Assembly: GCA_035079385.1 (NCBI GenBank)
Contig: JAVHKY010000030.1
Span: 2,705,001 to 2,769,000 of the forward strand
From: Aspidiotus rigidus
Lineage: Eukaryota; Arthropoda; Insecta; Hemiptera; Diaspididae
Length of the DNA stretch: 64,000 nucleotides
Direction: 5' to 3'
A program made the position numbers and the translations under genes. This document shows positions 1 to 50,634 of this stretch, piece by piece. Under the pieces are notes generated by a model. The model did not search any database. It saw nothing but the letters and a program-made list of their open reading frames with translations, and had not been told where the DNA came from. The first letter of the stretch is position 1. Each line of letters begins with the position of its first letter.

Positions 1-120
1 GATGAAGAGGGAGCTAGTGTAGCACCCGATGACAAAACACACACACTCTCACGCTTGTATCAAATTTAGGATGAGCAGATGAAGCTAGATAAGATTGTAT
101 GACAGAACTGAAAATTTCAA

Positions 121-336
121 TTATCTTTTATTCAAGTCCAAGGAATTTTCTAGCAAAAACGTTACTTCACTGGAATTTTTCAAATAACTAACTGAATGTC
201 TAACCCTGTCAAGCTTAGAGCTGCGAGGAAGTATGGTCGCTAGCGCGTCACTGCCGTTTAGAGTACAAATTATAATGGGGTGTTTTGTTCTGGAGGACCC
301 ACTTGCTTGACTAATGAAATTATAAGTTAAGGTCAA
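121..336 (-). other. Possible coding exon, left-arm copy
   Basis: This is the mirror copy of 10258-10473. See that entry for the reading frame. No difference between the two was seen. Confidence 0.25.
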
Positions 337-403
337 TCGCGATCCACTCGGTGCTAATCAACTTGAGTCGTATTGTAGAACATGCCCTAGACAAACGTGA
401 GTG

Positions 404-913
404 ATCAATCAAAGTAGGTACCTAATATTACTCAACTCATGTAAAGTCAAATCTAAATTGAAGGTTATTACTCTTCTCTCTGTCAAACATTTGCAGACGT
501 TTGGATACTCTGTCACTTCATCCATGGAACAAGTACATTCTGTACAGTCTTTTTTTCATAAACCGGGACGCTCTGTTTTGCAATCCCATCTAGGTTTAAT
601 AACATTCTCAATTTCGTTACTATTGAACATTACAAAACACGATTGTAAAAAATCATCACGCTTAACTTTTTTCACGACATTATTTAAAACTTTCGTCGAA
701 TATAAGGATTATTTTCAGCAAAGTATTTGCTTATGACATTGTAAATCACATTAGTCACCAGATCTTTTACATGAGCCTTAAGCCCGAGTCTATTGGTAGC
801 ACATTATTCAACATCGAGCATTCATACAAATAGTGATTGTTGATCAATTGGAAGGCTTTTTCCGGATTTGAACGAATTTGTTTAATAGCGTTGATGATAT
901 TACCCCGCTCCTT
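404..913 (-). pseudogene. Decayed family-B gene, left-arm copy
   Basis: This is the mirror copy of 9681-10190. The only arm-to-arm substitution I noticed (772 versus 9822) falls inside it, close to the frameshift. Confidence 0.55.
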
Positions 914-1687
914 AGTGTTATTAGTTGAACACAACGTAAGTCAACGTACGACTCTGAATTGAAGTTGGTCAAACTTGTGAATGAACCTACACTTGTCCCT
1001 CTCCAACCCGATTCAAAAAACTTATAAAATCGACCAAATTCAATTATATTTATAATTATCGACCTGAAAGATATTATTTCATGAGAAAACCTAGAGATAG
1101 TTGACCACACACATAACAGAGTCGAAAGACTGTTCGCGATCTATATTATTCTCGTTATTATACATTTTGAAGCATATTTTACAAATTCAGGGAGGTGGTA
1201 AGTGTTAGAGAGGGTCGGGTTGACTAACAATACCGACTCACGCTCATCCACCGTTCTCTTCCTCGTAAACTATCACGATAATAATATGAACACAGGAGAT
1301 AGGTACTTTCGATGAATACTTTATTGACAATTCTCTTTAATCATTGACTGTGAGTGTCGGTGTGTGTTTATTGTAGGCACATTATTTGAAATATATTCTC
1401 GTTCTCCGAGACACTCTGGGAGGAGAAAAAAACAAGTCAATAATGTCTAGGAAAGAAAAAATAAAACAAAGTAGGTAAGATAAATTTTACAAACTTATTC
1501 TACATAATATAAATTTAAACCCAATAGCCAAAGCAAGGGCTAAAGCCTAAACAATAAGAATTATGAATTAAAATAAAATAAATGAATTATATATTTAAAA
1601 AATGGTCAGAAGATAGACAAAAGAGAACTTACAAAATTTACTACTTTTACCATGAAATGTATCTTATCAATATTGCTTCACGCTGTA

Positions 1688-1766
1688 CTAGAAATCGTTT
1701 GTTTTAGTTTCGATGATATCGTCCCAAATAAATGTTCCTCTAAAACCTATTTGAAAGGCGTTCGCC
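1688..1766 (-). other. Candidate terminal exon, left-arm copy
   Basis: Mirror copy of 8828-8906, which is described there. Confidence 0.25.
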
Positions 1767-2254
1767 CTGAAAAAATTGCATGGTATAATTAATTAATTGG
1801 TATAACATCACATATTCTTCACTGAATGAAAATAAGTCAATATTTTTTTCTTGGGTGAGGGTCTAAACTTCATCTCGCGCGCAATTAGTGTTTTTACTTA
1901 TGTATGTACACACGAAACTTATCTTCAAACTATAGAGGTTGCTAGGTGAAGCAATAGATGTGAACGTAAAACAAACTTTTAAATTAGACATGTTAGCGAG
2001 AAATAATCACTAATACACTCTGAAAAATCAGAAATAAAAGAATAATCGGACTATTTCACATTAATAATAATAATAATAAGAAGAAGAAGAAGAACATGGA
2101 ATGAAAAATTAAGTTCCAAATCTGACTAGAACGATTCGAATCTCTTGAGTACCAAAGTTCAGAAAGATAAAAAAGATGTGATCTTTTTTATTCCAGATTT
2201 TGACGGGTGAAGAGAAACTGTAGACCGAATTCATGGTCTATTCAAAATATTCCC

Positions 2255-2290
<36 letters not shown>

Positions 2291-2378
2291 GTGATCGAAA
2301 TTATTTTTAAAAATTCGAATAATAAATTTTGAAGATGCAAGAAGCTCGTTTTATCCTCAAACGGGGATAAACGTTATA

Positions 2379-2534
2379 TCATTCCCGGTCTTTGCGTCGA
2401 AACATTAGCTTGGGCTCATTATCGCCTCCCCTTATCCGAAGATCTAATTGTTCTTCTGTCGCAAAAACATCCTCAACATTTTCTAGTTCCCGCAAATTCA
2501 TCTCCTTCTGTTCCCTCTCCAGTCTCGCTTCCAC
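2379..2534 (-). other. Candidate coding exon, left-arm copy
   Basis: Mirror copy of 8060-8215, which is described there. Confidence 0.3.
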
Positions 2535-2636
2535 CTAATTAAGTTATAATACCTATCTGTTTTGTTTATAAGTGATCTACTCTGTTCTAATATTTATTAA
2601 AATACATTATATTGAATTATATACCCTCATTTTATT

Positions 2637-2777
2637 TCACACTTGGCATACACCCTTACCTCCAAAGATTTGTTTGAGGTTTGTACTTGTAGAACTCTTT
2701 CTGTCACTTGACTTAAGTACTACCTTTGTTGTTGGCAAACTTGTCGCTTCTTCTACTTCACCCAACTCGTGATTCAT
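2637..2777 (-). other. Candidate first exon, left-arm copy
   Basis: Mirror copy of 7817-7957, which is described there. Confidence 0.25.
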
Positions 2778-3339
2778 TGCAAATAGACTCAAAACACAAA
2801 GAGAATAAAGTAGCGGTAAAAGACAACCTTAATATCAATTTCAAATATTTTGGATATGCGAGCAAATTGTGATTGAAACGCAATTTAAAAAAAAAACAAA
2901 AACAAAAAAAAACTGATTTCCCATACATTCTATCCTTGTATTGGCGTAGAACAAAACTTTTTTTATCTAGCTAAATTGTTCATATTAGCTACTTGTAGTT
3001 TCCTTCTTTAATTTTTGAATGAAATAAATACACTTTTTGTTTTCCTTATTTAGCGATGTTATAATATTTGTAACTGGGATGGAAACCATTCTCTAGGCGT
3101 CATTGGTGCAGGCTTAAATTATTTTGTTGAGGAAATATAATAGCCTCTGTAAGACTTTTGTCGAAAGGAGGTTAAACGCGATTTGCCGAGAAATGGAAAG
3201 CGAGAATTGTTCCGAGAGGTTTGTAGGTAAACCCACTCACACTGAATCATGTATTGTCTCACCACGAAAAAAAATCATTGAATGTCCTTTGGTCAAATAA
3301 AGTGTGTACAAGTACATTGCTTTTTGAAGGAAAAAGAGG

Positions 3340-3575
3340 CTTCTCTCTGTATAATATGATCGAAGCTGACAAATACGCAAGAGACGCTTGTTGTTTCAGA
3401 TGTTGGAGGGTTTACCTAGAAACGGGTTCCCATGTTGTGGTTTGCAGAGAGAGACTGACTATAGAGCCCCATATATCTTTGAGGCGGACAAATGCAAGAG
3501 AGGTGCTCGTTGTTTCAAGCAAAAAGATCGTTCCATCTTTGTATTTTTCTACTTATTTATTCAGAATGAGTTAAA
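3340..3575 (+). pseudogene. Broken small gene with two Cys-containing repeats
   Basis: Two adjacent segments of about 26 codons resemble each other. The first reads with the core IEADKYARDACCF and the second with IFEADKCKRGARCF, so they share Y..I, EADK, R, A and CF. They lie in different forward frames, so a frameshift or a very short intron separates them. A TTTGCAG acceptor-like site sits between them near 3448. No family is recognised. The duplication shows that this was coding sequence. It is probably inactive unless spliced. An exact mirror copy lies at 7019-7254. Confidence 0.4.
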
Positions 3576-3645
3576 ATACTATATAAATGTACACTGCGAT
3601 TTTTACCATTCATTCAAATGGGTATACAAGCGCTTCTTTAGAAAG

Positions 3646-4374
3646 TTAAACAATTATACGAGCTTTGCGGAGTTTTTTCTCTATTTTGCGTATTTTTGGA
3701 AGCGTTTTGGTGTTTCCAGATTTTAGAGCTTTATGAAATAAATACAAGCTTTCAATAAGGTCATTAATATCAGTGGTTGAGTTGTAAAATGGCTTCTTGT
3801 TGGGGTTATGTAATACCATCCTAGCGATTGTCCCATTATTAATATCTTCTTCTCCAGAAGATGAACTATATTCCAACGGCTGAAAATGATTTGATGAACT
3901 CGCTTTGTCGGGTTCCTGTGATAACGTCTTAGCAAAAGACCCATCATTAAAATCTTCTTCTTTGGAAGATGAACTACTTTCCATCGGTTGGAAATATTTT
4001 GATGTATTTTCCATTGTATGATGTTGATAATTGCTTTCGCTGAATTTGTCATTTGATAACTGCTCATGAGTGCTAGCAGGAAGAGTAGAAGTAGACAAAG
4101 TTGAAATAGGCTCGGGATCAAATCCTCTATCCTCGGAAGCAAGTTTTTGTGTCATTTTCTCTAACAAAGGTACACACTTATTATTGACATTTTCTTGATG
4201 ATTATGTTTGGGGTACTCTCCTAAAACCTTGTTATCAGCATCATATTTTAGGTATGCTTTACACGTTCTTCGTTCGGCACATCTCCATCTCTTTCCACCT
4301 CTGACCAAAGGCTTATGGAATACAAACTTGTATCCTTTGAAAATAATCTGATTTTCATTATGTTTTTCAAGCAT
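3646..4374 (-). CDS. Small FLYWCH zinc-finger protein
   Basis: An uninterrupted 242-codon frame with an ATG start. Residues 9-60 form a FLYWCH domain: F12, Y15, F17, the W30-R-C32 core, then C38, H57 and H59, which are the expected C, C, H, H zinc ligands. FLYWCH domains bind DNA or mediate protein contacts in insect chromatin proteins, and also occur in Mutator-type transposases, but no transposase domain follows here. A Ser/Glu-rich linker contains two copies of a 31-residue segment, at 127-157 and 163-193 (FQPMESSSSSKEED and FQPLEYSSSSGEED). The C-terminus (202-242) is a basic helix. The last ~30 codons lie inside the left arm, so the palindrome edge cuts the gene, and the same 3' part recurs at 6855-6948. 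It is divergent from the 5187 gene across a shared minisatellite. Function unknown; probably nuclear. Confidence 0.8.
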   Translation of the reverse strand: MLEKHNENQIIFKGYKFVFHKPLVRGGKRWRCAERRTCKAYLKYDADNKVLGEYPKHNHQENVNNKCVPLLEKMTQKLASEDRGFDPEPISTLSTSTLPASTHEQLSNDKFSESNYQHHTMENTSKYFQPMESSSSSKEEDFNDGSFAKTLSQEPDKASSSNHFQPLEYSSSSGEEDINNGTIARMVLHNPNKKPFYNSTTDINDLIESLYLFHKALKSGNTKTLPKIRKIEKKLRKARIIV

Positions 4375-4467
4375 TTCTCAACTCAACGCTAGTATTGCTC
4401 AACTATCTTTGTTGCCTTAGTTTATATTACCGATCTTGCCTTTGTCGTTATCATTTTTATAGATTTT

Positions 4468-4694
4468 GGTCCCATTAGATCCTATTGTGGTCCCGTTTGG
4501 TCCCGTTTGGTCCCTTTGTGGTCCCGTGGTCCCGTTTGGTCCCTTTATGGTCCCGTTTGGTCCCTTTATGGTCCCGTTTGGTCCCTTTATGGTCCCGTGG
4601 TCCCGTTTGGTCCCTTTGTGGTCCCGTGGTCCCGTTTGGTCCCTTTGTGGTCCCGTGGCCCCGTTTGCTCCCGTTGTGGTTCCGCGTGGTCCCC
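4468..4694 (+). repeat. GGTCCC minisatellite, copy 1
   Basis: GGTCCC alternates with GTTT, TTTGT, TTTAT and GT spacers for about 227 bp. It lies between the FLYWCH start and the TATA box of the rightward gene. The open frames it creates (VPLWSR-type repeats) are by-products of the repeat. It may influence a shared divergent promoter. Confidence 0.92.
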
Positions 4695-4701
4695 TATCTC
4701 T

Positions 4702-4710
4702 TATATAAAG
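4702..4710 (+). promoter_or_regulatory. TATA box upstream of the 194-residue gene
   Basis: TATATAAAG follows the minisatellite directly, and the ~130 bp after it are conserved in the second module. The match to a strong metazoan TATA box and the conserved leader support a transcription start about 30 bp downstream. From there to the ATG at 5187 is about 450 bp, which may include an intron. It contains a short upstream ATG frame at 4862 and a (TA)n run near 5013. Confidence 0.65.
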
Positions 4711-5186
4711 ACAAAACGCTTTAGTTTGAAGTAGCCTTGTTTAAGCAATCTTTGTCAACTCTTTCAAAAGTCCTTTGGGGATTAAGTGCTAGCGTTGAAA
4801 AATTGATCATAATTGCCTAGTGTGTTTGAAAATTTCATCTGAGAGGAATCAATTCTAGAGGATGAATCTTAAACATCATTCAAAAATGAGAGTTGCGTAA
4901 AGGCAAAGAGGGGGTGCTTATTTTTCATAAGGGACTAAAGATTTGATGGGAAGAACTGGTAAGAATGATTAACTAATTTTTTTCTGCTCCTCAGAAAGAA
5001 AAAAAAAGTATATATATATATATGAAAGCCGCGAATGTGTTCTCCGACACTAGAAAAATGGCTCACTAATTCTTTCTAAAACAAAGAGGCATCATTGTAG
5101 GAGGAGATTCGATTTTTTCGTCAATCCAACAACAGAAACTTAGCCATATACATGTTCATTCTTCATTCTTCTTTGACTCAGTGAAA

Positions 5187-5771
5187 ATGTCTCCGTGTTC
5201 AATTTTACGGCAACCAAAGAGCTTACAAAAATTATGTCTCAAAAAAATATTCAGTAATATTGGTACAGTCCATATAGGGTGTATGTGCGATGAGACGCGT
5301 CGACTTAAACAAAGAAGTAGTACTTCGTTTCTTAGAAAATACGCTCCACAATGCCTTAAAATTCGCACATATGTACCAAAAGAAAGACATTTTATTACAT
5401 TTTGTCAATTATCTGGGTGGATAGTACGATTTTACAGCGAAGAGAAAAATCAGGATAGTCCTTTGAACATGCGACTCTATGGAAAGCGAGATAAATACAC
5501 CCGTTATCATCCTGAAATAATTCGGAATCTCATACGTAATTTATGCATAAATCTCGATGAGAAATATTTCAAGTCGTTCTTTGTCGTGAAAGATCTTTAT
5601 TATTCACGTGATGTAATCAACATTATTATAGCTCCTCGCTTACTAAAGTGGAAAGAAATGAAACTTCTCTTTGACTACTTATGTGGTGGAATTCCATCAA
5701 TGAAAGACGCTCTAGAGAGAGCATTGAACATAAGAATGGGACGTAGATGTTATTTTTTCCGGAGTAATTAG
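5187..5771 (+). CDS. 194-residue protein with BC-box-like N-terminus (family A, intact member)
   Basis: The start is the ATG at 5187; the upstream in-frame GTG is not a likely start. I do not recognise the protein by family. Near the N-terminus SLQKLCLKKI fits the Elongin-C binding BC-box rule (S/T/P)LxxxCxxx(A/I/L/V), the core of SOCS boxes. A broken paralogue keeps it as SLRVLCVLKI. No Cullin box is evident, so an E3-ligase adaptor role is only inference. Other conserved blocks are TYVP...F..F, LIRNLCINLDEKYFK, FFVVKD and IAPRLL..KE.K.LF..LC. No signal peptide or membrane segment is evident. The promoter comes from module copy 1. The frame has no introns and ends 34 nt before a histone-type stem-loop. 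Paralogues are at 10802-11286 and about 11500-11977. Confidence 0.75.
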   Translation: MSPCSILRQPKSLQKLCLKKIFSNIGTVHIGCMCDETRRLKQRSSTSFLRKYAPQCLKIRTYVPKERHFITFCQLSGWIVRFYSEEKNQDSPLNMRLYGKRDKYTRYHPEIIRNLIRNLCINLDEKYFKSFFVVKDLYYSRDVINIIIAPRLLKWKEMKLLFDYLCGGIPSMKDALERALNIRMGRRCYFFRSN

Positions 5772-5805
5772 TATAATATACGCTAGCATTAGATATTTTT
5801 AAAAC

Positions 5806-5821
5806 GGCCCTTTTCAGGGCC
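5806..5821 (+). terminator. Histone-type 3' stem-loop of the 194-residue gene
   Basis: GGCCCT-TTTC-AGGGCC forms a six-pair stem with a four-base loop, preceded by AAAAC and followed by ACCCC. This matches the metazoan replication-dependent histone stem-loop (GGYYYT, T-rich loop, ARRRCC, flank ACCCA) at every position. It begins 34 nt after the stop, as in histone genes. SLBP would bind the RNA hairpin and cleavage would give a non-polyadenylated end. I see no clear purine-rich U7 site downstream. An AATAAATAAAA run at 5863-5873 could serve as a polyadenylation signal. Confidence 0.85.
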
Positions 5822-5897
5822 ACCCCTGATTCTCTAAAACATGCAATTATTTATTCAAAGCGAATAAATAAAAGGTTGGTCTAGTTGAGAGACAAGT

Positions 5898-6017
5898 TGC
5901 TTTACACGTTCTTCGTTCAGCACATCTCCATCTCTTTCCACCTCTGACCAAAGGCTTATGGAATACAAACTCGTATCCTTTGAAAATAATCTGATTTTCA
6001 TTATGTTTTTCAAGCAT
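5898..6017 (-). pseudogene. 5' fragment of the FLYWCH gene
   Basis: The ATG at 6015-6017 opens the first 40 codons of the FLYWCH protein with one replacement (K16 to E), through the W-R-C and second Cys. It then runs into unrelated sequence. The His pair is missing, so no finger can form. It appears to have been carried along as the far end of the duplicated promoter module. Confidence 0.85.
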
Positions 6018-6111
6018 TTCTCAACTCAACGCTAGTATTGCTCAACTATCTTTGTTGCCTTAGTTTATATTACCGATCAAGTGCCTTTGTCGTTATCATT
6101 TTTATAGATTT

Positions 6112-6291
6112 GGTCCCATTAGATCCTATTGTGGTCCCGTTTGGTCCCTTTGTGGTCCCGTTTGGTCCCTTTGTGGTCCCTTCAAGGCCCCGGTTGCTCC
6201 CGCTGTGGTCCCGTTTGGTCCCTTCGTGGTCCCGTGCTCCCGTTTGGTCCAGTGGTCCCATTTGCTCCCGTTGCGGTCCCACTTGGTCCCC
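6112..6291 (+). repeat. GGTCCC minisatellite, copy 2
   Basis: The same GGTCCC repeat as 4468-4694, but shorter (about 180 bp) and more diverged, with interspersed GCTCCC and GGCCCC. It sits in the same position, just 5' of TATATAAAG. Confidence 0.9.
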
Positions 6292-6300
6292 TATCTCTTA

Positions 6301-6309
6301 TATATAAAG
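6301..6309 (+). promoter_or_regulatory. TATA box upstream of the family-B gene
   Basis: TATATAAAG follows the second minisatellite and precedes a leader shared with module copy 1. The distance to the first ATG (6440) is about 130 bp. Confidence 0.65.
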
Positions 6310-6439
6310 ACAAAGCGCTTTAGTTTGAAGTAGCCTTGTTTAAGCAATCTTTGTCAACTCTTTCAAAAGTCCTTTGGGGATTAAGTGCTAGCGTTGAAAA
6401 ATTGATCGTATTTGCCTAGTGTGTTTGAAAATTTCACTT

Positions 6440-6472
6440 ATGAAGTTTCTTCTTGCTCGTATGCTTCAGTGA
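6440..6472 (+). CDS. Ten-codon upstream frame overlapping the family-B start
   Basis: ATG AAG TTT ... CAG TGA begins just past the shared leader, and its TGA overlaps the next ATG as TGATG (6470-6474). This arrangement would allow termination-reinitiation if the ATG at 6472 is used. It is too short to be judged coding by composition. Confidence 0.3.
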   Translation: MKFLLARMLQ

Positions 6473-6798
6473 TGAGGAGAAAAAAAAAAAGTAAAAGTTT
6501 ACGAGTGAAGATGGAACCTCGTAATATCATCGACGTTATTAAAAAAATTTCGTCTCACCCTGAGAAAGCTTCTAGATGGATCAACGATCGCTTCCCTAAC
6601 GTTAGTAACGGGACATTAATGTGTGTAGCAAATAGACCTATAGTTTGCGCGAAAGATTTAGTGCCGAATGTAATTTACATTGTTTTGTGTAAACATTTTG
6701 ATCAACTCTGTTTTCTGCTTGTGTTAAATGATGTCGCGATTAAAGTTCCGCGAGAACAGTTTTTTCTATCGTACTTCGTTTTTTTTTTTCGACGGTAA
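6472..6798 (+). CDS. Small basic protein, family B (intact member)
   Basis: A frame of 108 codons from the ATG at 6472. An ATG with stronger context at 6511 gives a 95-residue form. The stretch before 6511 is Lys-rich (RRKKKKSKS). Recognisable blocks are NIIDVIKKISSHPEKA, then KDLVPNVIYIV and a beta-rich tail ending VPREQFF. The first two recur, frameshifted, in both arms as GNIINAIKQIRSNPEKA and KDLVTNVIYNV, which confirms that this is a real, diverging gene family. No known domain is recognised. The last codons (FVFFFRR) are read from the T run of a hairpin, so the natural C-terminus may have been replaced when the palindrome edge formed. No histone-type stem-loop follows. Confidence 0.6.
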   Translation: MRRKKKSKSLRVKMEPRNIIDVIKKISSHPEKASRWINDRFPNVSNGTLMCVANRPIVCAKDLVPNVIYIVLCKHFDQLCFLLVLNDVAIKVPREQFFLSYFVFFFRR

Positions 6799-6849
6799 AA
6801 ACTTGTAAACATTCATCCGAATTGGATTCGTGACCGTCGAAAAAAAAAA
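6779..6849. repeat. Hairpin at the inner edge of the right arm
   Basis: A T run followed by CGACGGT (to 6796) is mirrored by ACCGTCG and an A run (6833-6849). This gives a 17-bp perfect stem around a 36-base loop. It abuts the palindrome boundary at 6850 exactly and overlaps the stop of the family-B gene. Confidence 0.85.
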
Positions 6850-6854
6850 TATTT

Positions 6855-6948
6855 ATTTCATAAAGCTCTAAAATCTGGAAACACCAAAACGCTTCCAAAA
6901 ATACGCAAAATAGAGAAAAAACTCCGCAAAGCTCGTATAATTGTTTAA
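6855..6948 (+). pseudogene. 3' fragment of the FLYWCH gene
   Basis: This reads FHKALKSGNTKTLPKIRKIE and continues to the same RIIV end as codons 213-242 of the 3646-4374 gene. It is the mirror of that gene's tail and lacks the zinc finger and the linker. Confidence 0.85.
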
Positions 6949-7018
6949 CTTTCTAAAGAAGCGCTTGTATACCCATTTGAATGAATGGTAAAAATCGCAG
7001 TGTACATTTATATAGTAT

Positions 7019-7254
7019 TTTAACTCATTCTGAATAAATAAGTAGAAAAATACAAAGATGGAACGATCTTTTTGCTTGAAACAACGAGCACCTCTCTTGC
7101 ATTTGTCCGCCTCAAAGATATATGGGGCTCTATAGTCAGTCTCTCTCTGCAAACCACAACATGGGAACCCGTTTCTAGGTAAACCCTCCAACATCTGAAA
7201 CAACAAGCGTCTCTTGCGTATTTGTCAGCTTCGATCATATTATACAGAGAGAAG
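7019..7254 (-). pseudogene. Broken small gene with two Cys-containing repeats, right-arm copy
   Basis: Mirror copy of 3340-3575 on the opposite strand, with the same two EADK...CF segments in two frames. Confidence 0.4.
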
Positions 7255-7816
7255 CCTCTTTTTCCTTCAAAAAGCAATGTACTTGTACACACTTTATTTG
7301 ACCAAAGGACATTCAATGATTTTTTTTCGTGGTGAGACAATACATGATTCAGTGTGAGTGGGTTTACCTACAAACCTCTCGGAACAATTCTCGCTTTCCA
7401 TTTCTCGGCAAATCGCGTTTAACCTCCTTTCGACAAAAGTCTTACAGAGGCTATTATATTTCCTCAACAAAATAATTTAAGCCTGCACCAATGACGCCTA
7501 GAGAATGGTTTCCATCCCAGTTACAAATATTATAACATCGCTAAATAAGGAAAACAAAAAGTGTATTTATTTCATTCAAAAATTAAAGAAGGAAACTACA
7601 AGTAGCTAATATGAACAATTTAGCTAGATAAAAAAAGTTTTGTTCTACGCCAATACAAGGATAGAATGTATGGGAAATCAGTTTTTTTTTGTTTTTGTTT
7701 TTTTTTTAAATTGCGTTTCAATCACAATTTGCTCGCATATCCAAAATATTTGAAATTGATATTAAGGTTGTCTTTTACCGCTACTTTATTCTCTTTGTGT
7801 TTTGAGTCTATTTGCA

Positions 7817-7957
7817 ATGAATCACGAGTTGGGTGAAGTAGAAGAAGCGACAAGTTTGCCAACAACAAAGGTAGTACTTAAGTCAAGTGACAGAAAGAGT
7901 TCTACAAGTACAAACCTCAAACAAATCTTTGGAGGTAAGGGTGTATGCCAAGTGTGA
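7817..7957 (+). other. Candidate first coding exon in the right arm
   Basis: A 46-codon frame starting MNHELGEVEEATSLPTTKVV with Ser/Lys-rich continuation. A good donor (GGAG|GTAAGG) lies at 7935, so this may be a first exon. Joining that donor to the acceptor at 8059 breaks the frame; a weaker GTATGC donor at 7943 would preserve it. No homologue recognised. Mirror: 2637-2777. Confidence 0.25.
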
Positions 7958-8059
7958 AATAAAATGAGGGTATATAATTCAATATAATGTATTTTAATAA
8001 ATATTAGAACAGAGTAGATCACTTATAAACAAAACAGATAGGTATTATAACTTAATTAG

Positions 8060-8215
8060 GTGGAAGCGAGACTGGAGAGGGAACAGAAGGAGATGAATTT
8101 GCGGGAACTAGAAAATGTTGAGGATGTTTTTGCGACAGAAGAACAATTAGATCTTCGGATAAGGGGAGGCGATAATGAGCCCAAGCTAATGTTTCGACGC
8201 AAAGACCGGGAATGA
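8060..8215 (+). other. Candidate coding exon, charged helical peptide
   Basis: The frame opens exactly at an AG acceptor (TTAATTAG|GTG) whose TAG would stop it upstream. It then runs 51 codons, beginning VEARLEREQKEMNLRELENV and ending RRKDRE before TGA. The Glu/Arg/Leu-rich composition predicts a helix or coiled coil and differs from the surrounding AT-rich sequence. No family recognised. Mirror: 2379-2534. Confidence 0.3.
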
Positions 8216-8303
8216 TATAACGTTTATCCCCGTTTGAGGATAAAACGAGCTTCTTGCATCTTCAAAATTTATTATTCGAATTTTTAAAAATAATTTCGAT
8301 CAC

Positions 8304-8339
<36 letters not shown>

Positions 8340-8827
8340 GGGAATATTTTGAATAGACCATGAATTCGGTCTACAGTTTCTCTTCACCCGTCAAAATCTG
8401 GAATAAAAAAGATCACATCTTTTTTATCTTTCTGAACTTTGGTACTCAAGAGATTCGAATCGTTCTAGTCAGATTTGGAACTTAATTTTTCATTCCATGT
8501 TCTTCTTCTTCTTCTTCTTATTATTATTATTAATGTGAAATAGTCCGATTATTCTTTTATTTCTGATTTTTCAGAGTGTATTAGTGATTATTTCTCGCTA
8601 ACATGTCTAATTTAAAAGTTTGTTTTACGTTCACATCTATTGCTTCACCTAGCAACCTCTATAGTTTGAAGATAAGTTTCGTGTGTACATACATAAGTAA
8701 AAACACTAATTGCGCGCGAGATGAAGTTTAGACCCTCACCCAAGAAAAAAATATTGACTTATTTTCATTCAGTGAAGAATATGTGATGTTATACCAATTA
8801 ATTAATTATACCATGCAATTTTTTCAG

Positions 8828-8906
8828 GGCGAACGCCTTTCAAATAGGTTTTAGAGGAACATTTATTTGGGACGATATCATCGAAACTAAAACAAACGAT
8901 TTCTAG
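8828..8906 (+). other. Candidate terminal coding exon
   Basis: A strong acceptor (CAATTTTTTCAG) at 8827 is followed by one phase base and the frame ANAFQIGFRGTFIWDDIIET, ending six residues later at TAG. The upstream partner exon is not identified. A 42-codon ATG frame at 8603-8731 lies between this and a TTTTTCAG site near 8570, but its donor does not match in phase. Mirror: 1688-1766. Confidence 0.25.
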
Positions 8907-9680
8907 TACAGCGTGAAGCAATATTGATAAGATACATTTCATGGTAAAAGTAGTAAATTTTGTAAGTTCTCTTTTGTCTATCTTCTGACCATTTTTTAAA
9001 TATATAATTCATTTATTTTATTTTAATTCATAATTCTTATTGTTTAGGCTTTAGCCCTTGCTTTGGCTATTGGGTTTAAATTTATATTATGTAGAATAAG
9101 TTTGTAAAATTTATCTTACCTACTTTGTTTTATTTTTTCTTTCCTAGACATTATTGACTTGTTTTTTTCTCCTCCCAGAGTGTCTCGGAGAACGAGAATA
9201 TATTTCAAATAATGTGCCTACAATAAACACACACCGACACTCACAGTCAATGATTAAAGAGAATTGTCAATAAAGTATTCATCGAAAGTACCTATCTCCT
9301 GTGTTCATATTATTATCGTGATAGTTTACGAGGAAGAGAACGGTGGATGAGCGTGAGTCGGTATTGTTAGTCAACCCGACCCTCTCTAACACTTACCACC
9401 TCCCTGAATTTGTAAAATATGCTTCAAAATGTATAATAACGAGAATAATATAGATCGCGAACAGTCTTTCGACTCTGTTATGTGTGTGGTCAACTATCTC
9501 TAGGTTTTCTCATGAAATAATATCTTTCAGGTCGATAATTATAAATATAATTGAATTTGGTCGATTTTATAAGTTTTTTGAATCGGGTTGGAGAGGGACA
9601 AGTGTAGGTTCATTCACAAGTTTGACCAACTTCAATTCAGAGTCGTACGTTGACTTACGTTGTGTTCAACTAATAACACT

Positions 9681-10190
9681 AAGGAGCGGGGTAATATCAT
9701 CAACGCTATTAAACAAATTCGTTCAAATCCGGAAAAAGCCTTCCAATTGATCAACAATCACTATTTGTATGAATGCTCGATGTTGAATAATGTGCTACCA
9801 ATAGACTCGGGCTTAAGGCTCGTGTAAAAGATCTGGTGACTAATGTGATTTACAATGTCATAAGCAAATACTTTGCTGAAAATAATCCTTATATTCGACG
9901 AAAGTTTTAAATAATGTCGTGAAAAAAGTTAAGCGTGATGATTTTTTACAATCGTGTTTTGTAATGTTCAATAGTAACGAAATTGAGAATGTTATTAAAC
10001 CTAGATGGGATTGCAAAACAGAGCGTCCCGGTTTATGAAAAAAAGACTGTACAGAATGTACTTGTTCCATGGATGAAGTGACAGAGTATCCAAACGTCTG
10101 CAAATGTTTGACAGAGAGAAGAGTAATAACCTTCAATTTAGATTTGACTTTACATGAGTTGAGTAATATTAGGTACCTACTTTGATTGAT
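9681..10190 (+). pseudogene. Decayed family-B gene in the right arm
   Basis: The first frame reads GNIINAIKQIRSNPEKA, matching NIIDVIKKISSHPEKA of the 6472-6798 gene. After about 40 codons a frameshift moves the match to KDLVTNVIYNVISKYFAENN. A second frameshift near 9905 leads into VVKKVKRDDFLQSCFVMF, which the intact gene does not have, so the ancestral protein may have been longer. Two frameshifts and an internal TGA make it inactive. Mirror: 404-913. Confidence 0.55.
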
Positions 10191-10257
10191 CACTCACGTT
10201 TGTCTAGGGCATGTTCTACAATACGACTCAAGTTGATTAGCACCGAGTGGATCGCGA

Positions 10258-10473
10258 TTGACCTTAACTTATAATTTCATTAGTCAAGCAAGTGGGTCCT
10301 CCAGAACAAAACACCCCATTATAATTTGTACTCTAAACGGCAGTGACGCGCTAGCGACCATACTTCCTCGCAGCTCTAAGCTTGACAGGGTTAGACATTC
10401 AGTTAGTTATTTGAAAAATTCCAGTGAAGTAACGTTTTTGCTAGAAAATTCCTTGGACTTGAATAAAAGATAA
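10258..10473 (+). other. Possible coding exon without ATG
   Basis: A 71-codon open stretch (core HPIIICTLNGSDALATILPR) ends at TAA and has no methionine, so it would need a 5' exon. Composition looks coding, but no family is recognised. It lies at the outer part of the arm, mirrored at 121-336. Confidence 0.25.
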
Positions 10474-10593
10474 TTGAAATTTTCAGTTCTGTCATACAAT
10501 CTTATCTAGCTTCATCTGCTCATCCTAAATTTGATACAAGCGTGAGAGTGTGTGTGTTTTGTCATCGGGTGCTACACTAGCTCCCTCTTCATC

Positions 10594-10801
10594 TAAGAGT
10601 GCACACTAACTCTACCCACACTGGAAGTAACTATAGGCCGGAAGCCAATAAGGAAGGGAACATCGTCGTACTCTATCCGCTTCTATATGAATCAAGAGTT
10701 CACGACCTACCGCTACACCAGAGTGATCGTACAAGGTGTGTCGACATGTTTGTAGTATGTAAAGTTGTGTGTTCTATGACTTTGCCCGTAATTATTTCAT
10801 C
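10594..10801. other. Outer flank of the palindrome
   Basis: About 200 bp between the right arm and the family-A paralogue. No terminal repeat, target duplication or stem-loop is evident. Confidence 0.5.
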
Positions 10802-11286
10802 TCATTCGAATATACGCAGCACCACAGCCAGATTCAATTCCTTGCTAGAATCACCCTTGCATAAGGAAAAGAAGAGATGTTTAATTTCTTTCGCGGTCAA
10901 TAAACGTGGCGCTATTACAAATTCAATGCTGTTGTCGTGAGGGAAGAAAAAGTCTCTTACAATCGCGAACGTTTTGAAATATGTGACATGGAGATTTAAA
11001 CAAGTATTGCGTATAAAATTCTGCATTATGCCCTTGAGAAAACAGCAATGATAGTCTCTATTTATCAGCATACGGTGTCTGAATATACAACTTTGGTTTT
11101 TCTGTTGAGTGAAAAAATCTACGCTGCTTGTGCATAATTTATAAAATTGAATATGATCTTTGCGTCGGGTAAATATGGCTAAGGTATGCATTGACCACAC
11201 CGCCCTATCTTGTATTGGGTAAGGTCGCATTTAAGACATCTTATAAGGAATATCTTAAGTACGCACAAAACACGCAGGCTGAACAT
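10802..11286 (-). pseudogene. Family-A paralogue with a frameshift
   Basis: From the ATG at 11286 the N-terminus reads MFSLRVLCVLKIF, keeping the BC-box rule SLxxxCxxxI. That frame stops. A second frame (ATG at 11230, 142 codons) carries the body: FIRNTCLNLHVTYFKTF, VRDFFFPHD, IAPRLLTAKEIKHLF and LC.G. These align with LIRNLCINLDEKYFKSF, VKDLYYSRD, IAPRLLKWKEMKLLF and LC.G of the 194-residue gene. A frameshift near 11180-11230 therefore splits an otherwise complete copy. No histone-type stem-loop follows the stop before the arm edge at 10593, so the 3' end may have been lost when the palindrome formed. Confidence 0.65.
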
Positions 11287-11308
11287 TTTGTTGCGATCGA
11301 AATAATAC

Positions 11309-11338
11309 GATGATAATAATAATAATAATAATAGTAAT
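11309..11338. repeat. AAT microsatellite
   Basis: Seven or so ATA units with a GTA interruption, lying upstream of the 10802-11286 paralogue. Confidence 0.8.
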
Positions 11339-11483
11339 ATTTTCGGAGTTAGTTAGTTTGTCTAACTTTGAGCTTTGCACCCTGCTCGTCTGATTGGTGG
11401 ATGAATCTTCCGTTTGATCATTGAAAATAGTAGATACATCTGCTATTTTTTCGCGATCGCTTCTATGATCGAAAGAATTATGT

Positions 11484-11499
11484 GGTCCTGAAAAGGACC
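11484..11499 (-). terminator. Histone-type 3' stem-loop of the third paralogue
   Basis: On the minus strand AAAAC-GGTCCT-TTTC-AGGACC-ACA forms the same six-pair stem and loop as 5806-5821. The third pair is changed from C-G to T-A on both sides, so pairing is kept. Confidence 0.8.
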
Positions 11500-11977
11500 G
11501 TTTTAATGATAATACTTGTCTCGTATAATAAATAAAATTATATCTCCATCCACCAACGCTTCGATTCCAAGCCTAGAATTATCGCCCAATAATATTCATC
11601 GCGTTTGTCAGCGTTACCTTTAAGAGAAAAAAGAACTCTTGCTCTTCACGTGCGCTAAACGTCTTTTACAACGTAATATGTCTGGAAAAATTTCTCATCA
11701 ACGTTCATGCAGATATTCTGGAGGAAAGACTGGAAAGTGGGAATAGAGAAGCGAGTGATCCACTCCCTTACTGGGAATTCAAGTTGTTAAGTGAATATGG
11801 TTTTTTTTGTTTTCTTTCTTACTGAAAAAAGTCGATGATACTACCAGATATTTTATAAAACTTGAGAATATCACGCATAAAAGGTACATATGTGAAGCAT
11901 GCAATGTGCCTTGGATGAAGACATCTTACATTGAATATTTTCTCGCGATATAAATCTTCCAAGCTTCTAACGTACAT
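11500..11977 (-). pseudogene. Third family-A paralogue, broken
   Basis: Starting at the ATG of 11975-11977 the frame reads SLEDLYREKIF (BC-box position with Cys replaced by Tyr), TYVPFMRDILKFYKISGSII, then a stop. A shifted frame continues with EWITRF and FLQNICMNVDEKFFQTYYVV up to KDV-stop, matching LIRNLCINLDEKYFKSFFVV of the intact gene. The IAPRLL block is not recovered. At least one stop and two frameshifts make it a pseudogene, yet its 3' stem-loop is intact. Confidence 0.6.
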
Positions 11978-12989
11978 TTTGCCGAGTCAACGTTAAAATG
12001 AGAATGATACTTTGAAAAAAACATATAAGTTGATGTTGATCACGGATATTCCCACCTATCATCTGATTGGTTTGTTGAATTTAATCATAGGGAGATCTGA
12101 TCCAATAAAAAATAATGTAAGAATCATCCTTCTAACGCATCACAGGGCAAAGCGGGCCAGCGAAACAATAAGGGTACGGTCAGAATTCTCACACCTTTGG
12201 AAAAACTGAAACTGACCAGATGTTTTTCAAAATAATACAAAAAATTAGGCTTAAGTCGTAAAACTATACCCATTTATTCGTAAAACTATACCCATTTATT
12301 CGAGTCGTATTTGAAATGATACTCCTAGGAATGGCGTTTGCCCGTTGATTTTTACGAGGGGTAGGTATCTGTTATATGGAGAATTAGCCCGATACATCAA
12401 TAAATTAAAATCGTCGCATTCTTAAGGAGTTGTGAATATTTTTTTACAAGCGTTTACCCCATTTTCATATATACGCGAAAAAGTAATAGGTAAACCGACA
12501 AATCGCAGCTGGACCAAAACAACGAGGACGGAACGAGGCGTGCGTATCGATTTTTACAATCGAAATTAAAGGTGTGCGTTTGATCGCGTGTCGGTAGCTT
12601 ACCTTACCTTAAATTAGATCAACGCGTAGATGCTATGAGAACTCCCTAAAAATTCTAATTAGACTTATTCAGATAATAAACGAAAATATATTAAAGAGGG
12701 ACTTCAACAAATTCATTCCATCATTCGATCGTATAGTTACACTCATTCATACTACGCTAAGCCCTACATATAGTACATACCTATTCTCTACTTTTACGAG
12801 CGAATATGATACACTCATTCATGGTCACCCTTCATTCATAGCGATCCTTGTACACCCTTTACTCTTACATGATCGAATACGTAGGGTGAATTCGTTCGTC
12901 GTATCACCGCCTACACGTTGAAATGACGATGACCACGATCATACATAATGCATTAACCCCCCAAAACCGACGAGCAACTCATTATTTTT
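11978..12989. other. No gene recognised
   Basis: AT-rich sequence. The only structure noted is a 22-bp direct duplication (CGTAAAACTATACCCATTTA) at about 12258-12301. Confidence 0.5.
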
Positions 12990-13640
12990 CCAAAAATTAA
13001 AACATTCACCGTTGCGTAAATATCGATTTTCCTTATACCTAACGCGATAAACTTCTTAACCCTTCCTCTGCCACCCTCCCTCTTTAGAAAGAAAACGTCG
13101 TCGAATAGAAAGAGATCGTCGTCGAACGGGCGATTCATTCATTTTCGTTCGTTCATAACGTCAATCAAGCACCACCGACGAAAAACGTAAATACGACTCG
13201 CCGTAATATTCTCCCTGGACGAGTAAATATCAATTTTTCCCTTATACCTAGAAAGAGATGGTCATATACGGGCCTAACTTAGAAAGAGAGAGATCGTCGT
13301 TGAACGGACAACTCATTCATTTTCGTTCGTTCGTAGCGCCAATCAAGCACCCCCAACGAAAAACAATATTCTTAATTAAACAGGAAGCCCTAACAAAAAA
13401 ACAACATTCGTGATATTCACCCTCGTCATGTAAAATTAATTTTTTTTTTTTCCTTATACCTATACAAATACTTCTACATACGACATGGTCATAACTTAGA
13501 CAGAAAGACATCATCGCGCTCCTCGTCGTCAAATAACCGGACAACCTTTCGTACAAAAAAGATCGCCGCCGCGACGTCATATAGCCGGACAAACCTTCTT
13601 AGAAAGAGATCGCCGTCATTTAGACAGAGAAAGAAAGATC
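12990..13640. repeat. Diverged ~210-bp tandem repeat, about three copies
   Basis: CCTTATACCT recurs near 13031, 13240 and 13452. Each is followed by GAAAGAGATCGTCGTCGAAC-like sequence and by CATTCATTTTCGTTCGTTC plus CAATCAAGCACC (clearest near 13130-13180 and 13310-13355). The third copy is most diverged. No coding potential. Confidence 0.7.
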
Positions 13641-14639
13641 AATCGCCGTCAAAAGCCGGACTTAGGCGTGCGCAGAAGGACCAAAGTCCCAAGACCTAAC
13701 TTTATATCCTACTTTTCGGCTCTCGAGGAACCCTATTTTCATTTCAAACACTCAGATCTTTCCAGTAGAAACAAATTCGAATCATGAACGCGAAAATTCT
13801 CCGATAAAATAAATTTCCGCTCAGTTCATGAACGCGTAACTTGTAAATATTATCACATTGGTTGTAACGTGGATCGTAAATTAAACCTCGATTCTGTATC
13901 ATAATAGAAACAAAAATCTTGCCACTCTGCATGCTAAAAAGCACAATTGTTCCAAGTTATTTCTTTCTGAAATGCTACTGCACATCAACTACCACAAACA
14001 ATGCCATACTATCGCACTGTAAGGATCGTGAGCGCATAGCACCCTGCAGGTCAACTGGCGAATACTACTCGATGTCGTCACTCTCATTGAAATTTATAAA
14101 TAAAGCAATTATTCGAATTCAGTGGCGCTTCATTGTACAGGCATCAAAGTAATGGACAGTATCATCAAGATAATACACTCGTTGCTGGAAAAACGGAACC
14201 AGGAAATCATAAAACTCAATTTCCCATGTTTTCATTTCCATTGAATTCACTGTCATAGCCTACATACTATACAGCGAGCGTGTTTTGTTTTCCAACAAGA
14301 TCGTTCCTCTGTTCGATCGATTATGTCGGCTGATTGTTTCGTAATTCCAAACATTAAATGCGAGCAAATTGAATAAACTGTTACATACGTCAATTCACCA
14401 AAACAAATGATAGTTCTTAAACTATATAGTTGTCATACGTCATGACGAACACTCGAAACGGCAAATCGTCCGAAATCGAACCGCAGGGAGTCGTAACGTT
14501 TCTAAGATGCATTGGAACCAAACACGTCACTTCCTCGATCTACATTTTTGTACAAAATTTCTATTTCTTCAACGAGTTGTCATGTTGAGGCAATTTAGCT
14601 CGGTATACGAAATTTGAATGTAGGTGCGATGAATACAAA
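13641..14639. other. No gene recognised
   Basis: AT-rich sequence without repeats, RNA genes or a convincing reading frame. Confidence 0.5.
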
Positions 14640-32620: not shown

Positions 32621-33149
32621 TTCAAGTTGTCATGTCATGATTTTCAGGACTTGGAAGAACTTCAGGCTCTAGGGGACTCGGGACAGCGGGTCAAAGCGAG
32701 AGGTATGTGGGTCCACGACATAGGTAATTTTAGATGGGTGCAACGCTGTTGATGCTGATCGCCATTAATTGTCTCTTCCATTTTGATTGAACAATTGGCC
32801 GATAGGTTCGCATAATGTCAAAATTCTCCATCCTAGTGGAAAGGGTCCTCTTTCCATTGTAAGGACACTTTGGAATTTTAAGGACACTTTGATGGAATAT
32901 CCTGCTTCTTTCAACAAGAATATCGATGTGACCGACACATTAGTTATCTAATTCCATAATTTTCTGGATTCATATGATACGATCAGTTTCTTTGAAAGAT
33001 GGTGAATGAGTCAGATTAGGAAGGAAGAGAAAGTATGCGACGAGAAAACTTCCTAGCCCAAACAGGAGATCGTTCAACGAGTGTGACAATCACTACCCTA
33101 CCTGGCCCTAAGAATAGATAGTCGTAGTTTACTAGCGAAGGAGTTGTTT

Positions 33150-33223
33150 GTAATTGAAAAACTCGAGCGAAAAATTTGACCACTTCGTCGGGATCGCAAC
33201 CCGAGACCTTTCGCTTGCCGGGG
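33150..33223 (-). repeat. tRNA-like sequence, inverted copy
   Basis: Reverse complement of 33326-33399 apart from a few changes. On the minus strand it keeps the box-B-like GGTTGCGATCC and the downstream TTTTT. Its 5' half diverges from the plus-strand copy. Confidence 0.6.
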
Positions 33224-33297
33224 TTCGTCGCCGTTGCGGGTAGTGACGTACAAGTTCTCGTCGTGAGCACTTGGAAACATTCGCGGAAGGTTTGATC

Positions 33298-33369
33298 GCC
33301 CTCGTAGCTCAGCGGTAAAGCAGTCGCCCGGCTAGCGAAAGGTCTCGTGTTCAGATCCCGACGAGTTGG
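33298..33369 (+). tRNA. tRNA-Ala-like sequence, probably a pseudogene or SINE head
   Basis: Box A (TAGCTCAGCGGTAAAGC) and box B (GTGTTCAGATCCC) are in tRNA spacing. D, anticodon and T arms can be drawn with one mismatch each. The seven-base anticodon loop CCGGCTA would give anticodon GGC (Ala), but position 33 is C, not T, and only four of the seven acceptor pairs form. TTTTT at 33374-33378 could end Pol III transcription. The defects and the inverted partner at 33150-33223 argue for a tRNA-derived repeat, not a working tRNA. Confidence 0.45.
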
Positions 33370-33399
33370 TCAAATTTTTCGCTCGAGTTTTTCAATTAC

Positions 33400-36300
33400 C
33401 AGTAACCCGCATGTAAGTATTGCGTCTTTTGTCGTATTTTACCTTCAGATAGAAGTCCCACCTTGAGAGACCACAGTACATTAGGCTGTTTCAAACACAC
33501 ATTCAAGCCTGGAGAAGAGAGACGCAAATCCGTGGAAAGTAGAATTGAAAATTGTTCGGACGTTTACAAAGAATCATATAGACAAAGAAGAAAGAGAAAG
33601 TGTGTCCTTTTCATGATATATTTTTGAAAAATTGATTTTCGGAGATTGAAACGTGTCACAAAAACGGTGAGATTTTTAATATGTTGTTTCCAACACCTAG
33701 CCTGGACATTTCACAATCAACTTCACAGTCAGAAAATATTTTTTTCATCATTTATCACCTGATGCATGCGTATATTTCAAATGCAATTTAATAATCGCTT
33801 ACGATCCAAAACGTGAAATCAACTTTTTTTCAAATTCTTACAATCTTGTAGAAAAGTATCATACAGGCGGCGTTTCTTAGCCTAATGAAAGTCCATATTA
33901 TTTTGAAAGGTCATATGAATAAGGAATGAAACAAATTGGTGTTGCCTGTTTCAGGTGCGACCCTTTCAAATTAATTGCGATAAAAAACGCGCGAATGAAT
34001 TAGGAGTAGTTTTTAGTGGAAAGTTCAACAACCATCAAGATTGCTTGGCCTAGAGACCGTGAAGTACAGGTTTCAGGATTCTTATATCTGAAATTGCAAA
34101 TGGATAACTACTCGCGTAAAATTCTGTAACGTTCCATTAATTCTGTATAAATTGTTTAACAGTGAGAGAAAAAAATAATATTTATTATACAAAACAAAAA
34201 AAAAAAGAATGAAATAATTTGCTATAAGGTCAGATTAAGATCTACTAACGTATTGAAAAAAATTACTATTTATCGAATCGATATCCTTGAAAATCAAAAA
34301 ACTTCGATTATGAAATGTAAAACCAAGTTTATAAGCGGGTCCGTTCACTCGTGGTCGACGATATCATGAATGAAATGTTTTAAAAATAGCCACGGCCGAT
34401 CGAATAATAATCGCCGATAATATTCGTGTTTAAGCTGTACTTTTTCTTTTCGCGTATCGATACCTTACGTACCTATCACGAGTTAGAATACATAAAGAGA
34501 AAGTCACCGCGGGTATACCGTTTTTTTTTTTATTTTCAGTTCTGGTCAGCTGTCGCCAAAAATTAAAAATACCAACAGAACTCGGTGTACACGTACTAAA
34601 AACGTATTGTCCATTAAGTAACAGGTGATTCAACTTTCTGCATTACGCAACGTGGTCGACCAGAATTGAGAAATGGTTTTGTCGATAAAAATGTCATGTA
34701 AAATAAAGCCGATAAACCGAACGACGATAATTTGACGCGTCAATTATTTGTAAATGCCCGTCCTTCGCCACATGAATGAAGGCGCCAAAGGCAGTACCAG
34801 TGAACCACCTAAGGGTCTTTTCAAAGTTGTCTCGTTTCGCTTAATTGAAAGTAAACGTTCTGTCTCTGCCTCGCTATCGAAAGAAGTCACCCGTTTGCGC
34901 TATCACAAGATCGTAATTTAGGTTCACGGGAACGCGTCGTGTCGTTAAAGTCAGTTTAAATTTTCCTTGTAGACGATTCGTCGAAATTTTATTGCCATTG
35001 TTTCTTGGCCTATATGCGGTAAATTCGTTCTCGGAAGTTCACTATTCTTATTGTAACCACTACCTATACGATGTACCTAACTAACAGTCCAACGAGAGAG
35101 CGATGCACTGATGCGGCTGGGTACCTACTGTGATATAATTATTCATCTTCGTGATGGCAGCAGTGGTGAATGCGCCATCGAGCAACATCATGTCGAGGAG
35201 CAATACTTCAAGAGAACGTTTACTGGATAATGCGGATTTTACGCAAATTCTGCAGTTTTCCTATTTATACGGACTTTCGTAAATTATGCATAATAATTGG
35301 TCATAAAAATGAGATAATTGAAAGTGACAGTGCGTGTACCCTTTCGTCGTCATTAGGTGCGTGTTTATTTCGCTGTCGAGCGAAGTGTAATTATATAGGC
35401 GCGAGGTCGCCATTTGTTTACAGCCACTGTATTTTGGTTCGTCATCATTTATATTTTGTATATGAAAATTCATCGTCGTATGAAAAGTGATAATAACGAA
35501 TTTTGGTTGGATGGTGTGAAAGCGTTCACTTGGAAGCAATTGGTGGCTTCTCGTCGCCCAGAATTTTCATTATTAGTACTTCGACATTTTTGATGAATTG
35601 ATCAATAGGGTAAATTGTTTATACACCACGTATCGTTCCTTTTTCACTATGGAAAATCGTCTGCTTTTTTTCTGGGACATATAATTATTATTTACAGATC
35701 ACCTCACCACTTCCGAAGTCAACTCCCCAGCAAATAGGAAAATTTTATAGAAAATTTGAATTTTTTTTACGCTTATGGCAAAAAATTTGTTTAGACAGCG
35801 ATATCTCCTTGTTTTCACTCTTCATTGCGTTTGCTAAAGATATTCCCTATTTATTCGCCGAAATATCGTAATCAATAATCTCATCTTAAAAATCGTCTGC
35901 TATTATCTACAAACCATTTTCCTCAATCCGAGGTATCGGAAAAACACAGTCATCATTGGCTTCGACCTAATTAAAGGACTTGGAAAGATTCTACCCAAAG
36001 CGTAGTATGATGTCATAAGTGACCCTGATCTGATGAAGTCCGAATACACAGAGGGGGCGGATGATTCAGTTACTCTATGTATATACTCAAGGCTAAGAAA
36101 AGAATTCAAGTAAATTTCTCCACTTCATGGAAAAACATTGAATCGTGTACATGTCTTTGGGCGTTTGCAAAGAAATAAAATGTACAGATATGTTAATTTT
36201 GATTACATCGATTCATCAATCTCGATTATATCAATATATGATCTTGATTGTATTGGAATATCGATTCTATATACTTGGCTGCTATAGTAAGTTAACCCTT

Positions 36301-50396: not shown

Positions 50397-50634
50397 GCAA
50401 AAGTCGTTTAACCACTTTGCACGTTTGAAAAATGAGAAAAAACAAAAAATTGGACCGAAGAAATACCGTTTAATCACCACAAAAAAACACGAGCGAAAGT
50501 AAAAAATTACTACAATTTAAGCACAATTTTACTTTCGCTAATGTTTTCTTGTGGTAATTAAACGGTATTTCTTCGGTTCAATTTTTCGTTTTTTCTCATT
50601 TTTTAAACATGCAAAATGGTTAAACGACTTTTGC
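50397..50634. mobile_element. Hairpin MITE with 108-bp arms
   Basis: 50397-50504 and 50527-50634 are inverted copies around a 22-base loop, with about ten differences. They start GCAAAAGTCGTTTAACCA and close at GCGAAAGTAAAA. The outermost bases (GGTGCG / GGGGTA) no longer match. There is no coding content. Confidence 0.85.

Follow-up and report, generated by a model that had tools for sequence, protein, structure and literature searches.

Gene A and the stem-loop beyond its stop codon

In the 64-kb window—the whole 64,000-nt stretch of Aspidiotus rigidus DNA analyzed here—ORF calls, Pfam and a genome search delineate gene A (positions 5187–5771, plus strand) as an intact, intronless gene of no known family, whose single unbroken frame encodes a basic protein of 194 aa (pI 9.9, net charge of ~+22, nine cysteines). 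An earlier description made from the letters alone (hereafter, the sequence-only reading) had called this gene intronless and its product a non-histone protein. Both statements hold, as the frame runs uninterrupted from 5187 to 5771 and neither A nor any of the 14 family members compared had a histone match in Pfam. For gene A and its relatives, Pfam and PHROGs likewise offered no convincing family: PHROG matches were scattered (best E 0.0075) and a Pfam match to AvrPiz-t fell under the cutoff (E 0.02), both being judged too weak. Too weak as well was the match of the family profile to the telomere resolvase ResT (E 0.01; the sole match, to a 78-residue chain, at positions 84–160 of alignment A1), which serves as a lead only. 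Searches for homologues outside this genome returned none in a set of 5.8 billion proteins, be it with the single sequence or with the 14-row alignment, none that could be confirmed in viral contigs, and none in phage records. The predicted structure of A (from two window proteins) had a mean pLDDT of 33 and was set aside.

A TATA promoter, as in replication-dependent histone genes, had also been ascribed to gene A. This part did not stand: no equivalent of the (TA)n run at 5009–5022 was seen in the 260 nt preceding the gene at loci L040, L042 and L044, whereas the host H4 and H2B genes have TATAAA at –109 and –88, respectively, and a histone-like promoter was hence rejected. GGTCCC-type tandem repeats (4465–4693 and 6109–6290) are located just upstream of the two copies of a duplicated module (4697–4837 and 6296–6436) that contains a TATATAAAG-like sequence and precedes genes A and D.

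Downstream of gene A lies the hairpin GGCCCT-TTTC-AGGGCC (5806–5821, plus strand), with a stem formed by 5806–5811 and 5816–5821, a loop at 5812–5815, and the flanks AAAAC (5801–5805) and ACCCC (5822–5826). The stop codon is separated by 34 nt from the stem and by 29 nt from AAAAC. The sequence-only reading had equated the structure with the SLBP-bound histone hairpin, and the Rfam scan it proposed as a check agrees: Histone3 (RF00032; gathering cutoff of 34 bits) matched positions 5801–5847 with 40.2 bits (E 2.4e-8 for the 64-kb window), the sole Rfam match at the gathering threshold in the 64 kb. Under the threshold, matches to miRNA families mostly hit both strands of inverted repeats; those at 33146–33403 and 50443–50590 are probably foldback or MITE-like elements. 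The predicted fold of the stem-loop RNA (5801–5826) is as expected (MFE of –11.4 kcal/mol, z of –2.57). No bacterial-type terminator was found at the site, and the hairpin pattern had no exact match in viral contigs.

Genome-wide (441 Mb, 102 contigs), gene A matched 151 stretches, many of them arranged as inverted pairs and 33 of them with the whole protein 100% identical. An above-cutoff RF00032 match sits just 3′ of the gene in 31 of these 33 copies, from 75 candidates scored; the other two copies (C56:1628712 and C72:4692557) lie outside the list of 75.

The palindromic element that carries gene A

While the sequence-only reading was right to place a histone-type hairpin on a non-histone gene, it overlooked the setting, a multicopy palindromic element of Polinton type. 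Gene A resides inside a nearly palindromic mobile element of 16.8 kb (G000:C30:2701881-2718713), of which the first 3,119 bases fall outside the window on its left side and the remainder occupies window positions 1–13713. Its arms are inverted repeats of 6,864 nt with 100% identity (–3119 to 3744 and 6850–13713); within the window, this translates into 100% identical inverted arms at 1–3744 and 6850–10593. The termini read AGTAGG...CCTACT, the ends being AGTAGGATATAAAG and its complement, and are bordered by a 6-bp target-site duplication, TTTCGG, whose right copy is at 13714–13719 (plus strand) and whose left copy immediately precedes the element (L039). A perfect 6-bp duplication also surrounds nine of ten other elements with the same ends.

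Besides gene A, the element encodes a FLYWCH zinc-finger protein of 242 aa (3646–4374, minus strand; PF04500, E 3.2e-6) and harbors gene D (6406–6798, plus strand), a frame open from stop to stop near the palindrome center. The right arm contains two paralogues of A on the minus strand: gene B (10802–11230, 142 aa), for which no stem-loop was found here, and gene C (11637–11977), which is decayed and contains internal stops. Gene C lies upstream of a second stem-loop, GGTCCTTTTCAGGACC (11458–11504, minus strand), in which one pair is changed on both sides and which scores 29.3 bits with RF00032, i.e. under the cutoff of 34. Unlike the B gene in the window, those at L047, L057, L059 and L067 do possess a stem-loop. 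We noticed that B lacks the stem-loop where it resides in the amplified palindromic element (10805–11230 in the window; L062, L068 and L072) and carries it in other elements.

Fuller copies of the element measure ~19.7 kb. In one of these (L073; C3:3835000-3840500), the middle is palindromic as well (98.5% over 4.5 kb), almost as far as the center, and contains genes A and D twice each. With only a single A and a single D in its middle, the window copy has lost part of its center. Inverted dimers such as L073 may reflect a hairpin replication intermediate.

The definition of Polinton/Maverick elements includes a 6-bp target-site duplication. Their domain set, as given in the available part of PMC6431247, comprises PolB, a DDE integrase, a packaging ATPase and capsid genes. 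The window element resembles them in size, in its long terminal inverted repeats (the 6,864-nt arms) and in its duplication, TTTCGG; it is unlike them in that it is palindromic over almost its whole length, with its genes duplicated, and in that it shows no protein-primed PolB or retroviral-like integrase, neither a polymerase nor an integrase domain having been found by Pfam in a six-frame translation of the arm. The same ends, however, delimit a 19.66-kb element (C72:1780028-1799686, duplication AAAATT) in which 6 kb of sequence revealed an rve integrase (E 1.2e-8) along with an ATPase of the poxvirus A32 type (E 3.4e-10). PolB was seen neither in the 6 + 2 kb read of this element nor among the genome matches listed for it; DNA_pol_B_2 matched 185 stretches of the genome in all. 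A more distant element on C54 combines a 57% paralogue of gene A with a capsid fragment of the double-jelly-roll type (E 3.3e-37) and, like the window element, encodes a FLYWCH domain (L104, 2e-7), and its relative on C33 has a 6-bp duplication (CTTCAA) and the ends AGTAG...CTACT. Given the 6-bp duplication and the domain set distributed over these relatives, with integrase and A32 ATPase in an element sharing the very ends of a window copy that shows neither PolB nor integrase, we file the latter as a non-autonomous, Polinton/Maverick-type element and not as a Polinton proper.

Hairpin conservation and candidate 3′-end signals

Relatives of gene A were found at 92, 80, 57 and about 30–44% identity and were sorted into the classes A, A57, B, C, P (the integrase-coding element and its relatives) and Q. 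The basic character of A is shared by a hairpin-less Q member (net charge of +15), and two P members are neutral to acidic. A tree computed from 13 of 14 aligned rows, the B gene of the window being left out, did not resolve the deep branches, so that the hairpin may have been gained once and then lost in P and Q, or may have been gained repeatedly.

We surveyed 44 gene entries for the hairpin, taking the last matched sense codon as the reference point for distances. With all six pairs, it was present 25–37 nt 3′ of this codon in 17 of 25 entries of A, A57 and B (8/12, 5/5 and 4/8, respectively). Among the other class A entries, two retain five of the six pairs (L046, L051) and two yielded no stem-loop (L043, L052). 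Four of the six decayed C genes have a six-pair hairpin, located 158 nt past the last recognizable match. None was found in P (0/4), Q (0/7) or L066 (0/1), and the A57-related L053 has none at the expected distance (0/1), the one located there being 444 nt away. In B, in A57 and in some paralogues of class A, the hairpin scores under the RF00032 cutoff.

Between A and A57, synonymous divergence is close to saturation, with a dS of 1.43 (dN 0.33; 66% coding nucleotide identity), yet the hairpins share 22 of 24 bases, and the remaining two jointly swap one G-C pair for A-U. At a pS of 0.76, A and B share 19 of 24 hairpin bases; A and C, at a pS of 0.80, share 21 of 24, with a C-G pair replaced by U-A, a comparison that combines the coding part of L059 (whose own hairpin is lost) with the hairpin from other C loci. 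The B hairpins have unusual loops (TCCA, TCTA), and the 3′ flanks around the hairpin differ among paralogues. Pairing was then counted in 14 chosen sequences, namely ten from elements (four A, one A57, three B, two C) and four from the host (one an H2B pseudogene): all 84 of 84 cells are paired and two of the six pairs have changed on both sides, in a set that leaves out near-identical copies and decayed hairpins and thereby favors pairing. Sliding the partner strand reduced pairing to 7–64%. A shuffle control was mixed: the covariation score came out at 5/500, as did the count of cells changed on both sides, while pairs changed on both sides gave 31/500 and pair types 340/500. Since bases and pairs are kept among paralogues with saturated synonymous sites, and pairs have changed on both sides, selection on the hairpin in this gene family is well supported by sequence comparison, and so is the suggestion of a non-histone family with a histone-type 3′ stem-loop.

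Two further features in the window could bear on 3′-end formation (both on the plus strand). A pyrimidine-rich stretch, GATTCTCTAAA (5828–5838), is a candidate downstream element, situated about where host histone genes have ATTTCTTRA, and a small hairpin, ATTTATTC..GAATAAAT (5849–5872), contains AATAAA at 5863 and 5867 and may be an alternative polyadenylation site. By eye, a downstream motif common to element genes and host histones looked good. It failed a position-weight test, however, with a matrix built from seven sites (five in histone genes or histone-derived, two orphan): the host motif was not convincing in the element genes, with p 0.047 for A, 0.17 for A57, C and L066, and 0.52 for B and L053.

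Polyadenylation signals are distributed unevenly across the classes. All 12 entries of class A have AATAAA or ATTAAA 74–97 nt past the last sense codon (the AATAAA lying ~41 nt past the stem), which makes a polyadenylated transcript form possible in this class. No such signal exists within ~330 nt in any of the five A57 entries or in three of the four B entries bearing a stem-loop, whereas all seven entries of class Q, which is devoid of the stem-loop, have one 22–38 nt past the last sense codon. That A57/B and Q have one signal in place of the other is the strongest indirect indication of 3′-end formation by the hairpin. In class P (four entries), the nearest AATAAA/ATTAAA is no closer than 264 nt. 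The integrase-coding element with the same ends as the window copy has a gene of this class; of its 19.66 kb, the 8 kb that were read (L107, L064) gave no RF00032 match.

The host histone pathway and the proposed role of the hairpin

Host H1, H4 and H2B loci feature the same hairpin as the element genes, followed by ATTTCTTRA; searches with PF00125, PF00538 and an H4 query located further host histone genes. For SLBP, PF15247 exceeded its cutoff at C3:9981096 and C3:9975972. The SLBP-domain exons thus lie at two neighboring places (G000:C3:9975972-9981374; L079–L081), perhaps representing two SLBP copies. U7 snRNA was not found in the host via RF00066; as the control genomes likewise gave no match, this does not count as evidence of its absence.

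Histone-type stem-loops also occur elsewhere in this genome. A tandem array of them spans G000:C33:2665426-2764570 (L077, L078, L110), with units mostly ~3 kb apart; in the L077 unit, the stem-loop is 3′ of a truncated H2B pseudogene, identifying a satellite built from a histone gene. Other stem-loops are orphans, i.e. not near any listed histone or A-like gene. Ten of these (C2:3852684, C3:27369766, C4:113377, C11:12505524, C12:4374132, C15:5303629, C16:334843, C16:5925031, C16:5932233 and C20:6909074) comprise seven with the host motif ATTTCTTAA, two with the variant TTTCTCTAACA and, on C11, one with neither; further orphans are at C28:152258, C28:159460 and C21:1597076-1605169. Orphan pairs on C16 and on C28 are spaced by exactly 7,202 bases on the same strand, a regularity that hints at a further family of repeats ending in a histone-type signal.

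The 3′ end of gene A resembles that of replication-dependent histone mRNAs (SLBP/U7; RF00032) in its GG-rich 6-bp stem, 4-nt loop, AAA and AC flanks, proximity to the stop codon and intronless gene, as well as in its identity to the hairpin of host histone genes. It differs in that gene A encodes a non-histone mobile-element protein, that the downstream motif is not convincing and that its processing is putative. We favor the explanation, with a probability of roughly 0.65, that the hairpin is a genuine, selected SLBP-type 3′-end signal of Polinton-type element genes, whose mRNA would be poly(A)-minus and coupled to replication. That this mRNA is cleaved, remains free of poly(A) and is timed to S phase is here inferred from the histone pathway, and so is each step of the following scheme. 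Host transcription would continue past the hairpin, host SLBP would bind the hairpin RNA, and a U7-type complex would cut 4–5 nt past the stem (~5825–5826), in keeping with the rule for histone pre-mRNA cleavage (4–5 nt after the stem) stated in the available part of PMC7026596. The message would exit without poly(A) and be stable and translated mainly during DNA replication, such that element proteins may be made when host replication provides nucleotides and open chromatin for copying and integration of the element.

It is rather unlikely that the hairpin is merely an accessory SLBP-binding site in a gene A mainly polyadenylated at the AATAAA at 5863, with two possible transcript ends. The poly(A) signal common to all 12 class A entries and the weakness of the host-type downstream motif would fit this; the missing signals in all A57 and three of the four stem-loop-bearing B entries would not. 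Nor does a poly(A) signal exclude ends formed at the hairpin: as described in the available part of PMC1924863, C. elegans histone genes combine hairpin and poly(A) signal and their mRNA ends after the hairpin, possibly upon trimming from the poly(A) site. The order of hairpin and poly(A) signal in gene A is that of these genes and of human H2A.X (PMC7807067), all of which, however, are histone genes. Improbable, too, is a histone 3′ end captured by the element and hitchhiking without function. The identical hairpin in host histone genes would point to such a source, and the H2B-pseudogene satellite demonstrates that histone 3′ ends have been amplified in this genome. Yet a passive passenger would hardly keep 22, 19 and 21 of its 24 bases and all pairs at synonymous saturation, with pairs changed on both sides, while the 3′ flanks differ; separate captures by A, B and C, which are conceivable, would in themselves point to selection.

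Given an element built of inverted repeats, the hairpin might alternatively serve it as a DNA hairpin, transcription terminator or packaging signal, its histone likeness being convergence. This appears very improbable, as orientation and place are fixed relative to the stop codon, the unpaired flanks AAA and AC match those of the histone hairpin, as does the TTTC loop except in B, and the site offers no bacterial-type terminator. A chance match, finally, is negligible. By composition, a degenerate form of the stem-loop pattern is expected 8.5e-10 times per site and 5e-8 times in 60 positions, and the size of the genome raises this to 0.75 sites; a stricter pattern, however, occurs 211 times in the 441 Mb and its reverse not once, and the hairpins are placed after stop codons in several paralogue classes.

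Beyond the individual signal, whether a Polinton-type, virus-like transposon lineage has adopted the host histone mRNA pathway (SLBP, probably U7) for its own protein family is a reading we hold to be evenly balanced. Its messages would then be poly(A)-minus and made and translated during DNA replication, providing the first non-histone clients of the pathway and a route to S-phase coupling. Polinton-type elements and histone-type 3′ ends are each known, and no report of the latter on mobile-element genes was found in the literature searched, of which coverage was partial; their combination would be new. A selected histone-type end on a non-histone family would broaden the pathway, serve as a natural experiment on the contribution of SLBP by itself, and provide a virus-like transposon with a direct means of coupling to S phase.
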